From: JAUXIQ01 sp030620925 [NCBI: Nitrospinota bacterium]
GTDB taxonomy: Bacteria; JAUXIQ01
Direction of reading: 5' to 3'
NCBI GenBank assembly: GCA_030620925.1
Contig: JAUXIQ010000125.1
Coordinates: 1-6,270, forward strand
DNA length: 6,270 nucleotides
Within the stretch, counting starts at the first letter, position 1. Each line of letters starts with the position of its first letter. The notes below the pieces were generated by a model. It saw only the letters and a program-made list of their open reading frames with translations, ran no database searches and was not told where the DNA came from. A program made the translations under genes and the position numbers. This document shows, one piece after another, positions 475 to 4,321 of this stretch.

Positions 475-509
475 TGGTATAAATTAGAATTTTATGGAAA
501 ATTGTGGAA
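475..509 (+). promoter_or_regulatory. Putative MraZ operator: four TGGnA-type boxes on a 10-bp period
   Basis: TGGTA (475-479), TAGAA (485-489), TGGAA (495-499) and TGGAA (505-509) are separated by exactly five bases each, so all lie on the same helix face. MraZ in Escherichia coli is known to bind direct repeats of TGGGN separated by five bases near its own promoter. Same period, same core and same position make autorepression by MraZ the natural reading. The boxes deviate from TGGGN at one or two positions, so the assignment is inferred. Confidence 0.6.
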
Positions 510-520
510 CGGGAACAGCT

Positions 521-961
521 ATGTTTTTCGGAAGATACTTCATTACGCTGGACGATAAAGGCCGTATAAAAATTCCTGCTCCTTTCACAAAGTATCTTGA
601 TCGGGAGGAGGAAGATACCATCATATTGACTAACTTCGGCAGCTGCATAAGAGCATACCCCGAAAAAGAGTGGAAGGCTCTGCGGGCAAATGCAAAAGAT
701 CAGCCCGCTTTGCAGGAAAACAAATTGGCCTCAGAGAGGCTCTTCTTTTCATCGGCTAATATGGTAAACCTGGACAAACAGGGACGCCTTCTCATACCCA
801 ACTCTCTGCGAGCGGAAACCGGTCTTAAAGAGGACATAGTTCTCCTGGGCATCGACTACCGCTTCGAAGTTTGGGATAAAGCCCAATGGGACGCATATCA
901 GAAAACCTCCCAGGAAAAGAAAGAAGATATTTTCGAAGGGCTGTCTAAGGCTGGATTTTAA
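521..961 (+). CDS. mraZ: MraZ, AbrB-fold transcriptional regulator of the dcw cluster
   Basis: MraZ is a DNA-binding protein with two AbrB/SpoVT swapped-hairpin domains that forms ring-shaped oligomers and controls its own operon. From the ATG at 521 it has 146 residues, close to the usual 140-150. The N-terminus MFFGRYFITLDDKGRIKIP matches the family start, with the D-x-K-G-R-x-x-x-P signature at residues 11-19. The second copy, LDKQGRLLIP, begins around residue 84 (D85, G88, R89). An in-frame ATG at 494 would add nine residues. I reject it because it has no ribosome binding site, lies about 14 bases from the predicted transcription start and sits inside the MraZ-like boxes. The ribosome binding site for 521 is only fair (GGAACGGGA, 506-514). 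The gene is first in the cluster and is followed by rsmH, its usual partner. Confidence 0.95.
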   Translation: MFFGRYFITLDDKGRIKIPAPFTKYLDREEEDTIILTNFGSCIRAYPEKEWKALRANAKDQPALQENKLASERLFFSSANMVNLDKQGRLLIPNSLRAETGLKEDIVLLGIDYRFEVWDKAQWDAYQKTSQEKKEDIFEGLSKAGF

Positions 962-1002
962 CATATATATCCTGAGTGTTAAAGGAGAAAAGAGGGGGGG
1001 CC

Positions 1003-1054
1003 ATGAAAACCTGGGGATGAAAGAGAGGTCGATCGGGCGGTCCACCGCCCCGCT
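1003..1054 (+). other. Probable uncaptured N-terminal coding of rsmH (frame break)
   Basis: Read in the rsmH frame, these bases encode DEREVDRAVHRPA just before MLEEVL. H-x-P before M/L-L-x-E-V is the conserved RsmH opening. That frame has a stop (TGA) at 1004-1006 and then 16 codons with no ATG, GTG, TTG, CTG or ATN start. An ATG at 1003, preceded by a purine-rich tract (981-1000), opens a different frame that ends after five codons at the TGA at 1018-1020. Removing one G from the GGGG at 1013-1016 joins that ATG to the rsmH frame and gives an N-terminus starting MKTWDEREVDRAVHRP. Alternatively, adding one G at 1035-1037 joins the ATG at 1017. A sequence error or a genuine frameshift are both possible. 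Confidence 0.6.
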
Positions 1055-1972
1055 ATGCTGGAGGAAGTGCTCTTCTTTCTTAAGCCCTCCAGGGGCGGGG
1101 TGTTTGTCGACTGCACCATAGGGGAAGGAGGGCACGCTCGGGCCATTCTCGAATCGGGCCCCGAAGACACCCTCCTAGTCGGCATAGATCGTGACCGGGA
1201 GATATTGAGGGTGGCGGAAAGGACACTCGAACCCTTTGCGGAGCGCATTCATCTGGTACACAGTAATTTTTCCAACGTAAAGGAGGTGCTCGAATCCCTT
1301 AAGCTGGAGGGAGCAGCCGGCGTGCTTTTCGACCTGGGTGTTTCTCTCTACCACCTCAGCAAACCGGAGAGGGGATTCAGTTTCAGGCACGAAGGCCCTC
1401 TGGACATGAGGCTTGACGGGGAGGATGAAACGACCGCGGCGCACCTGGTCAACAACCTTAAGGAAGCAGAGTTGAAGCGGATTTTGTATGAATATGGAGA
1501 GGAAAGGTGGGCTCCCAGGATAGCCAGGCATATTGTGAGGGCCAGAGAAAAAGGGGCTATAGAGACCACCGGACAACTTGCAGAAATAGTCAGGAGAGCG
1601 ATACCCGCTAAGTACAGGCCGCGGCGAATAGACCCGGCCACCAGAAGTTTTCAGGCTCTCAGGATAGCAGTCAACGGTGAGCTGGATGTCTTGCCGGGAG
1701 CGATAAGGGACGCTATTGAAATACTTGAGCCGGGTGGTAGAGCCTGTTTCATAAGTTTTCATTCTTTGGAGGATCGTGAGGTAAAAAGAGGTTTGCGTAG
1801 TCTGGAACGGGGTTGCGCGGGTTCTCTCGAATCCACCGCCAGCACCCGGAGGCAAGGGGCGGAGAGAATAATAAATATATTGACCCCCAAACCTCTCTCC
1901 CCTTCCCCGGAGGAGAGGGTCGCCAACCCCGTCTCTAGAAGCGCTAAGTTGAGAGCAGCCGAGAAATTGTAA
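1055..1972 (+). CDS. rsmH: RsmH, 16S rRNA (cytosine-1402-N4)-methyltransferase
   Basis: RsmH (formerly MraW) transfers a methyl group from S-adenosylmethionine to N4 of C1402 in 16S rRNA, in the cytoplasm. Family motifs run through the frame. The SAM-binding VDCTIGEGGH is at residues 18-27 and the acidic GIDRD at 43-47. DLGVS is at 93-97, followed by RGFSF and GPLDMRLD (106-121). RRIDPATRSFQALRI starts at 190 and SFHSLEDR spans 234-241. The C-terminal tail has NPVSRSAKLRAAEK. The 305 residues are slightly short of the usual 310-320, and the deficit is entirely N-terminal. The first in-frame ATG (1055) has no ribosome binding site. It follows a perfect GGGCGG-TCCA-CCGCCC hairpin (1035-1050) and leaves out the conserved H-x-P residues encoded just upstream. 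The true start is probably near 1003 with a one-base frame break between. It lies 93 bp after mraZ in the same operon. Confidence 0.93.
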   Translation: MLEEVLFFLKPSRGGVFVDCTIGEGGHARAILESGPEDTLLVGIDRDREILRVAERTLEPFAERIHLVHSNFSNVKEVLESLKLEGAAGVLFDLGVSLYHLSKPERGFSFRHEGPLDMRLDGEDETTAAHLVNNLKEAELKRILYEYGEERWAPRIARHIVRAREKGAIETTGQLAEIVRRAIPAKYRPRRIDPATRSFQALRIAVNGELDVLPGAIRDAIEILEPGGRACFISFHSLEDREVKRGLRSLERGCAGSLESTASTRRQGAERIINILTPKPLSPSPEERVANPVSRSAKLRAAEKL

Positions 1973-2002
1973 TATCAACGTTATCCAGTTCAGGGAGGTG
2001 TG

Positions 2003-2374
2003 ATGAAATCCTACGCAGCCAGAACACGTAATTTTCCACTCATCGTTCAGATAGAATGGGACAAAATTTTCGCCGGGCTGGAGCTCAAAAAATTTCTGGC
2101 TTATGTCATATTTGTGACCTGCTTCCTCATGGGAGCTCTCCTCTACTTGTGGCCGCACATGCAGCTTCTTCAGAACGGCTTCCAATATAACGGCCTTCAG
2201 GTGCACAAAGAGCGCCTGTTGGATGAAAACAGAGCCCTGCGCCTGGAGTTCAGCAGCCTTAACTCACTGGACAGGGTTGAGCGCATGGCCCGCAACGAGC
2301 TGGGGATGACGACGCCGAAGGAAGGTCAGATAGTCTACGTCGCTCTGGAAAGCACTGGCAAAAATGAACGCTAG
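2003..2374 (+). CDS. ftsL: FtsL-like bitopic cell-division protein
   Basis: FtsL is a small single-pass inner-membrane protein that joins FtsB and FtsQ and activates septal synthesis by FtsW/FtsI. This protein has 123 residues. A cytoplasmic N-terminal part (1-30) ends in charged residues. One hydrophobic segment (about 31-50, FLAYVIFVTCFLMGALLYLW) is followed by a periplasmic leucine-rich coiled coil (about 65-95, with ERLLDENRALRLEFSSL). The family-like ending RNELGMTTPKEGQIVYV comes near 97-113. A GTG at 2000 is in frame, but GGGAGG (1993-1998) is only one base from it and four from the ATG at 2003, so 2003 is preferred. FtsL sequences diverge widely. The call rests on topology, the ELGM-P-GQ signature and the position between rsmH and ftsI. 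Confidence 0.88.
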   Translation: MKSYAARTRNFPLIVQIEWDKIFAGLELKKFLAYVIFVTCFLMGALLYLWPHMQLLQNGFQYNGLQVHKERLLDENRALRLEFSSLNSLDRVERMARNELGMTTPKEGQIVYVALESTGKNER

Positions 2375-2434: not shown

Positions 2435-4321
2435 ATGAGAGAGGTTAGCGCCGACGTAAGAACTCTTAAACGTCTTAAAATAGCTGCGTTCATGCTTTTA
2501 ATTTTCGGCGCGGTGGTAGGGCTAAGGCTTTTTCAGTTCCAAATCATCCAGCATGATCAGTTATCCGCCAAATCCGAGCAGCAATACCTGAGGACGCTCA
2601 AACTGGAGCCCAGGCGAGGGACCATCTACGACAGGAACGGCAAGGAATTGGCGGTGAGCGTTTCGGTCAACTCTCTTTATGCCAACCCCAGAGAGACAAC
2701 GATTACGAAAACCTCCACCAACCGGTTAGCCTTCATACTGGGAACCTCCCCCGAGGAGTTAGCCGCCAAACTCAGATCGCCCAAACATTTCATCTGGTTA
2801 TGGAGGAAGATCCCCCCTCGGAAGGCGGAAAGTATCGCCGCTCTCAACATAAAGGGGTTGGGGGTGGTCAAAGAAAACAAGAGATACTATCCAAAGCGCA
2901 CCCTTGCCGCCCAGATACTTGGCTTCGTGGGAACCGACAATGAAGGGCTGGAAGGATTAGAATATATGTACGACGCATACGTGGGGGGTGAGCCCAGCCT
3001 GGTGCTGGTGAAAAAGGACGCCAAGGGGCGCAATATTTACGCTTCCAGACGAATCCTCAAGGAAGGGTCTAAAGGGCTTGACATACTTCTAAACATAGAT
3101 GAAACTGTTCAGTATATAGCTGAAAAGGAGCTGGCCCGGCAAGTGGCTGAAAGCCGAGCCAGGGGCGGCGTAGCAATAGTTATGGACCCTCATTCCGGCG
3201 AGGTGCTGGCACTGGCTCACCAGCCCTCATTCAACCCCAACAGTTTCCTCGACTACAAGCCCGCTCGATGGAAAAGAAGCGCAATCTCAGACGCCTACGA
3301 ACCAGGTTCTACGTTTAAGATCGTCACTCTGGCAGCGGTCCTCGAAGAAGGCCTGGCGCAACCCGATGAAATATTATATGCCGAAAACGGAACCCTGGTG
3401 GTTGCCGGGAAATCATACCATGACGTTCATAATTATCATTGGCTCACAACCAGGGAGGTGATTTCCAAATCCAGCAACATCGGCACCATCAAGCTGGGGC
3501 AGAGACTGGAGCCGGACCTTATGTACAGATATATCAGAAACTTCGGGTTCGGCTCGAAAACGGATATAGGTCTTCCGGGGGAAGCCAAGGGTCTGGTCCG
3601 GGAAACTGAGGAGTGGTCCGGAGTATCCTTGAGTTCCATAAGCATCGGATACGAAATATCGGTCACGCCCATTCAATTGATCACCGCCTATGCCGCGGTG
3701 GCAAATGGTGGTCACCTGGTTAATCCCCGAGTGGTGAGAGGTGTTATGAAAGAGGGCCGGTTAATAAAAGAGTTCCCCGGCTTACCGGCCAGACGGGTAA
3801 TATCGGATAAAACGGCGGAGATCATCACCTCCATTCTCAAGGAAGTGGTGACTGTCGGCACCGGCCGGACGGCCGCTGTCCCTGGATACGACGTAGCGGG
3901 GAAAACTGGAACCGCCCTGAAATTCGATATCGAATTGGGCGCCTACTCTTCGAGCAAGTACGTGGCTTCCTTCGTGGGGTATTTTCCGGCGGACGACCCG
4001 AGGGTGGTGATACTGGTGCTCATAGATGAGCCCAAAGGCAGTTTCTATGGTAGTGAGGTGGCCGCGCCTACTTTCAGCAGAATTGCTTCTCAGGTGGCCA
4101 GGTATATGAAAATCCCGGCCCGGAATAATCTTCTCATAGCGGCCGCCCCCGATACCGATAAAAAAGTAGAAGGGCCTGCGAAAAAAGGAGAGGAAATCAG
4201 TAACATATTTAAGCGCATAGACAGAGGCTTAAAAAAACTGTTAGTCAAGGCTGTCTCCCCTCTCATGATACCCACGAAAGGAAAGGCGGCAAGTTACCGG
4301 ACGAATGAGGATTCAAGCTGA
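2435..4321 (+). CDS. ftsI: FtsI, septal peptidoglycan D,D-transpeptidase (class B PBP, PBP3-like)
   Basis: FtsI cross-links peptidoglycan at the septum, working with FtsW in the periplasm, and is a beta-lactam target. The 628-residue protein has a short cytoplasmic tail and one membrane anchor (about 14-32). The PBP dimerisation domain opens with RRGTIYDRNGKELAVS (60-75). The transpeptidase domain has all three active-site motifs: S292-T-F-K295 with the nucleophilic serine, S346-S-N348, and K490-T-G-T493. The catalytic domain ends near 555. Instead of PASTA repeats there is a charged tail of about 70 residues with a cationic amphipathic stretch (588-607). A stop at 2399-2401 precedes the frame and the ATG at 2435 is the only good start. 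Its ribosome binding site is weak (GGA at 2426-2428). The gap after ftsL is 60 bp. Confidence 0.96.
   Translation: MREVSADVRTLKRLKIAAFMLLIFGAVVGLRLFQFQIIQHDQLSAKSEQQYLRTLKLEPRRGTIYDRNGKELAVSVSVNSLYANPRETTITKTSTNRLAFILGTSPEELAAKLRSPKHFIWLWRKIPPRKAESIAALNIKGLGVVKENKRYYPKRTLAAQILGFVGTDNEGLEGLEYMYDAYVGGEPSLVLVKKDAKGRNIYASRRILKEGSKGLDILLNIDETVQYIAEKELARQVAESRARGGVAIVMDPHSGEVLALAHQPSFNPNSFLDYKPARWKRSAISDAYEPGSTFKIVTLAAVLEEGLAQPDEILYAENGTLVVAGKSYHDVHNYHWLTTREVISKSSNIGTIKLGQRLEPDLMYRYIRNFGFGSKTDIGLPGEAKGLVRETEEWSGVSLSSISIGYEISVTPIQLITAYAAVANGGHLVNPRVVRGVMKEGRLIKEFPGLPARRVISDKTAEIITSILKEVVTVGTGRTAAVPGYDVAGKTGTALKFDIELGAYSSSKYVASFVGYFPADDPRVVILVLIDEPKGSFYGSEVAAPTFSRIASQVARYMKIPARNNLLIAAAPDTDKKVEGPAKKGEEISNIFKRIDRGLKKLLVKAVSPLMIPTKGKAASYRTNEDSS

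Follow-up and report, generated by a model that had tools for sequence, protein, structure and literature searches.

An otherwise intact rsmH gene whose conserved opening was probably cut off from its start by one small change

RsmH, also called MraW, is a 16S rRNA m4C1402 methyltransferase whose sequence begins with a conserved H-x-P opening. A preprint links methylation at C1402 to translation from start sites that are structured or that use GUG, UUG or AUU (PMC13317604). In the account given there, Escherichia coli and Bacillus subtilis grown in laboratory media suffer only minor growth defects when RsmH is lost, and a suppressor that arose in B. subtilis was an insertion of one G in mraW (PMC13317604). 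A real loss of rsmH is thus tolerated, at least in these two species. In METTL15, a human relative of the enzyme, the methyltransferase domain is described as beginning at Pro74 (PMC10828496).

Here we report on an rsmH gene with no start codon ahead of this conserved opening. The window, by which we mean the whole stretch of DNA analysed, is a complete contig of 6,270 bases (C293) from a bin of 445 contigs and 2.5 Mb that is 89.47% complete and 3.55% contaminated. Its genes run mraZ, rsmH, ftsL/divIC-like, ftsI/spoVD-type, murE-like and murF-like, the last present only in its first part; murE and murF are named from Mur ligase domains and gene order. Four of these genes matter here:

494 to 961, plus strand: mraZ, intact, the 5' neighbour of rsmH (Pfam MraZ, 1.5e-31; stop at 959 to 961)
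1055 to 1972, plus strand: rsmH (mraW) from its first in-frame ATG, 305 amino acids, otherwise intact (Pfam Methyltransf_5, 2.7e-102; NCBIfam TIGR00006)
2000 to 2374, plus strand: ftsL/divIC-like gene, intact, the 3' neighbour of rsmH (Pfam DivIC and FtsL)
2435 to 4321, plus strand: ftsI/spoVD-type penicillin-binding protein gene, intact (Pfam Transpeptidase, 7e-79)

For the product of 2435 to 4321, the best NCBIfam model is TIGR02214 (SpoVD), at 485.4 bits against a cut-off of 688, which leaves it an FtsI/SpoVD-type protein of no clear subfamily. At the other end of the window, positions 1 to 133 of the minus strand hold the start of a small protein, 44 residues long where the contig edge ends it, that scores 25.5 bits with DUF4286 against a Pfam cut-off of 25.8.

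Some simple accounts of the locus could be set aside. A fusion of mraZ and rsmH was rejected by direct reading, since in-frame stops separate the two. A second copy of rsmH was rejected as well: the bin gave a single match. Nothing in the window matched an Rfam family at the gathering score, and a known RNA element was therefore rejected as the explanation of the start region. A search of viral contigs for an exact 24-base pattern gave 0 matches.

Where does translation of rsmH begin? On direct reading, its frame is open from 1007, directly after a TGA at 1004 to 1006, and its first ATG stands at 1055. The codons from 1007 to 1054 are AAA CCT GGG GAT GAA AGA GAG GTC GAT CGG GCG GTC CAC CGC CCC GCT, and no ATG, GTG, TTG, CTG or ATN is found among them. 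The region can be described as follows:

983 to 1000, plus strand: purine-rich Shine-Dalgarno region serving the ATG at 1003 (anti-Shine-Dalgarno pairing of -11.6 kcal/mol)
1003 to 1020, plus strand: five-codon frame M-K-T-W-G-stop, one base out of the rsmH frame; a possible original rsmH start, now disconnected (direct reading; Shine-Dalgarno strength)
1007 to 1039, plus strand: stretch of the rsmH frame that is open but offers neither a start codon nor signs of conservation (codon list; pLDDT below 50 for residues 1 to 11)
1035 to 1050, plus strand: 6-bp GC hairpin formed by the codons of R-A-V-H-R-P, with arms at 1035 to 1040 and 1045 to 1050 (direct reading)
1040 to 1054, plus strand: V-H-R-P-A, the conserved RsmH opening, ahead of the frame's first start codon (homologue alignment; predicted fold ordered from about here)

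An earlier note on this DNA had pointed to conserved coding upstream of the first rsmH ATG with no start codon to serve it, and both direct reading and the alignment of homologues confirm this. The stretch that it called RsmH-like, 1019 to 1054, must be shortened: V-H-R-P-A at 1040 to 1054 stands, and the rest, up to 1039, is modelled with pLDDT below 50. The alanine after H-R-P, which the note had counted as RsmH-like, is a departure from the family.

Homologous loci show what normally lies ahead of this opening. A first set held 59 aligned loci: 56 from 58 other genomes (two had no match) and 3 distant loci from a scan of genome contigs. The histidine is present in 58 of the 59 and the proline in 46, and all 58 loci with the motif have an in-frame ATG, GTG or TTG upstream of the histidine; these counts give the availability of an upstream codon, and the codon really used by each locus may differ. 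As read from the alignment, none of the 58 is forced to start at the position equivalent to 1055. The exception, L063, has a frame break of its own; read by eye, it keeps H-T-P-I-M in another frame, with a GTG before it. In two of the 59 loci, L033 (GTG) and L066 (ATG), no in-frame start lies upstream of the histidine except the codon immediately before it.

A second set added 14 loci at E <= 1e-78, with 45 to 50% identity, that were absent from the first. All 14 have the histidine; an upstream start was computed for 13 of them, and in the last, L092, an M is visible in frame by eye. Over both sets the histidine occurs in 73 of 73 loci, once in a displaced frame, and each locus has an in-frame start available upstream. 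Of the 386 genomes searched, E 1e-78 is reached by the window's own and by 17 others, whose identity is 46 to 53%; the comparison set includes no other genome of the window's genus or phylum, and all of the homologues are distant. Relatives that likewise begin at MLEEVL and lack H-x-P would count against the reading of the earlier note, and none occurs among the 73 distant homologous loci.

Structure prediction bears on the same boundary. An AlphaFold model of the open frame, made with 17 homologues, has a mean pLDDT of 91.1. Residues 1 to 11 (1007 to 1039) lie below 50, the block from 11 to 20 averages 83 and later blocks exceed 95; order is predicted to begin at about V-H-R-P. The alignment with METTL15 pairs residue 7 of the query with residue 70 of the METTL15 chain. 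Assuming no gap, Pro74 is the proline of H-x-P, and a protein begun at 1055 would therefore lack the first residues of the fold. The codon scores of the competing frames over 1003 to 1054 are small and mark no switch of frame. Coding evidence extends upstream only to about 1040.

We conclude that the conserved opening was probably severed from its start by a single small change, somewhere from 1003 to about 1040, either in the DNA itself or during its assembly. Judged by sequence, rsmH is an ordinary 16S rRNA (C1402-N4)-methyltransferase gene with a lost start. The change might have been of one base in length, leaving rsmH in a different frame from that of the well-served ATG at 1003, or it might have been a substitution of an in-frame GTG-type start that now reads GTC, at 1040; loss of a GTG-type start would explain the data equally well. 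Ribosomes loading at 1003 would stop at 1018 to 1020. At most, a truncated RsmH without H-R-P-A would be made weakly from 1055. A small lesion or sequence error behind conserved coding was also the core of the earlier note, and that idea is supported. Its two repair sites, GGGG at 1013 to 1016 and the G run at 1035 to 1037, are not established. Nothing localises the change to these runs: because coding evidence stops at about 1040 and the codon scores mark no switch, it may sit anywhere from 1003 to about 1040 and not necessarily in a run of G.

The candidate starts differ in how well they are served. For reference we used 127 genes of the bin, taking for each the best start within the first 40 codons; their median pairing is -8.3 kcal/mol, and choosing the best start favours strong values. 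Only 15% of these genes exceed the site ahead of the ATG at 1003, a strength that 2.4% of internal control sites reach. This ATG, one base out of frame with a purine-rich leader, is as the earlier note had it; its frame ends after five codons, at the TGA at 1018 to 1020. The ATG at 1017, in the third frame, pairs at -5.8 kcal/mol (78% of the 127 genes are stronger, and 38% of internal controls are as strong). For the ATG at 1055 the value is -6.5 kcal/mol: 72% of the genes are stronger, and 27% of internal controls match it, so that the claim that it lacks a Shine-Dalgarno sequence is right in effect.

Might RsmH nonetheless begin at 1055, directly or by reinitiation after the frame at 1003 to 1020, as a working truncated protein with the conserved opening as a relic? 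The downstream sequence is certainly well kept. From 1055 the protein scores 310.7 bits with TIGR00006 (curated cut-off 154.3) and 342.8 with PF01795 (cut-off 27). The alignment of the 59 homologues has 22 columns at 95% conservation or more; the window matches 21 of them, the exception being the valine directly after H-R-P, which is alanine here. At a threshold of at least 85%, two of 48 columns depart, the same valine and a later leucine that has become isoleucine. Valine follows H-x-P in 58 of 59 loci of the first set and 14 of 14 of the second, 72 of 73 overall; isoleucine stands in its place in L063 (in the displaced frame) and in L117.

The valine site lies upstream of 1055, and the 20 conserved columns downstream are all kept. 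The alanine would fit relaxed constraint upstream of 1055, a weak hint: since two of the 22 columns lie there, a single departure would fall among them by chance about 9% of the time. The stop at 1018 to 1020 also ends 35 bases ahead of 1055, in keeping with reinitiation. Against a truncated protein stand the 73 of 73 loci with a start available upstream of the histidine, the weak ribosome-binding site at 1055 with the GC hairpin just upstream, and the loss of conserved residues that are ordered in the predicted structure. We consider a working truncated RsmH unlikely.

Initiation at a near-cognate codon would preserve the opening. GTC at 1040 stands one codon ahead of the histidine, and its Shine-Dalgarno pairing is -10.3 kcal/mol. 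To our knowledge GTC is not an accepted start codon. Titles and abstracts yielded no relevant literature on GUC initiation, and we think that a start at this or another near-cognate codon is very improbable.

Programmed frameshifting at the TGGGGATGA stretch would join the frame of 1003 to rsmH, for example if the ribosome, with the TGA in its A site, slipped back by two bases on the Gly codon. The sequence, read with general knowledge of such sites, offers a stop codon for the A site, a Gly tRNA able to re-pair after such a slip, a Shine-Dalgarno sequence upstream and a hairpin downstream. Yet re-pairing in the plus-one direction would be poor by our reasoning, the hairpin begins 17 bases past the site, and homologues provide no parallel: an ordinary in-frame start is available in 58 of 59 distant loci. 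The hairpin, a perfect 6-bp GC stem as the earlier note said, is present but is not a notable signal. Compared with dinucleotide shuffles, 980 to 1070 folds with z +1.10 and 1020 to 1075 with z +0.37, neither better than the shuffles, and a notable hairpin signal was rejected on that ground. Slippage has no positive support, and we give frameshifting almost no weight.

A self-regulating switch is a matter of speculation: after the five-codon leader, translation of rsmH would begin at 1040 or 1055, on a codon that is non-standard or hindered by the hairpin. If methylation of C1402 helps hindered and non-AUG starts, the level of methylation by RsmH would therefore set translation of rsmH. As an account of this locus, such a switch would be a long shot.

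Our preferred reading, a start lost by one small change, leaves the question of whether the change is in the genome or in the contig. If it is an assembly or consensus error, the start is intact in the organism itself and the contig is slightly wrong. The fragmentary state of the bin and the intact remainder of rsmH are in keeping with this. We looked for frame breaks across a sample of the bin. A frame-specific fifth-order model was trained and applied on 31 contigs (220,971 bases, 145 genes). In two-fold cross-validation it recovered 117 of 145 artificial one-base deletions placed at 20 to 80% of gene length with the penalty that the scan used, and 92 of 145 at a stricter penalty; it was used instead of a codon-usage model that had found 15 of 102. 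The only frameshift that the codon-usage scan called, in L115, was rejected, being the junction of two genes when read by eye.

The 31 real contigs gave 65 candidate breaks. We examined 14 of the 16 strongest, the other two being an alternative pairing within a stretch already covered and a candidate at a contig end, and none of the 14 looks genuine. For ten of them the opposite strand carries, over most of their length, a longer open frame (390 to 959 codons), and we took these ten, with no family search, for antisense shadows. Another three have shorter frames opposite them with Pfam matches (ATP synthase I chain, NrdR domains and a proteasome subunit), and one falls at what we take to be a neighbouring nuoJ/nuoK pair. 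The scan is ill-suited to breaks as near a gene start as that of rsmH, which it did not visibly flag: the best 30 of the 65 include no plus-strand candidate from the window. In its own right, the minus strand of L035:3-530 (contig C1 of the bin) encodes a proteasome-subunit domain (PF00227, 5.5e-19), a candidate HslV or 20S-type subunit.

Runs of G or C also count against an error. In the 145 intact open reading frames, which were chosen for intactness, a run of exactly four G or C occurs 1,092 times and a longer run 400 times. Contigs as small as 2,516 bases suggest a short-read assembly, and four-base runs are rarely wrong in such assemblies. A generally error-prone assembly was rejected, as none of the 14 breaks examined looks genuine, and a generally homopolymer-prone one is unlikely. 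Of the error proposed by the earlier note, the general form is thus made less likely by this sample of the bin, and a single local error stays possible. We hold an assembly error at the rsmH start to be a tentative explanation. Somewhat more likely is a lesion in the DNA itself, at strain level and in a gene that can be dispensed with, although the data do not separate the two. As a counterpoint, the gene is otherwise well preserved and has no second lesion, which would fit an assembly error or a working truncated protein equally well.

For annotation these findings mainly advise care: gene-calling software would probably choose 1055 and so hide the severed opening. If the lesion is real, it would suggest that C1402 methylation has been naturally lost or weakened in an uncultured lineage.

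A second rsmH locus of our comparison set shows a broken frame. In L063 (genome G017), a one-base break within the gene, at seven consecutive G (about 554 to 620), costs the rsmH frame. In the sibling genome G164 (L117), rsmH is open across the site of that break. Another genome from the family of G017, G386, is 98% complete and has no rsmH match at E 0.001, a possible natural absence.

How does the window compare with known systems? Like described RsmH/MraW proteins (TIGR00006 / PF01795), its product has the full domain and the H-x-P opening, and methylation of 16S rRNA C1402 by it is predicted; the neighbours mraZ, ftsL/divIC-like, ftsI-like, murE and murF are also those of RsmH/MraW loci. 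Unlike them, it has no start codon before the conserved opening and has alanine where 72 of 73 loci have valine. The breaks in L063 and in the B. subtilis suppressor lie inside the gene, whereas that of the window lies at its very start. The B. subtilis break is reported as confirmed by sequencing (PMC13317604); those of the window and G017 are candidate breaks read from assemblies. Loss of a start by so tiny a change is an ordinary kind of event, and the likeness to L063 and to the B. subtilis suppressor (PMC13317604) is that a single small change would have cost an otherwise intact rsmH its frame.
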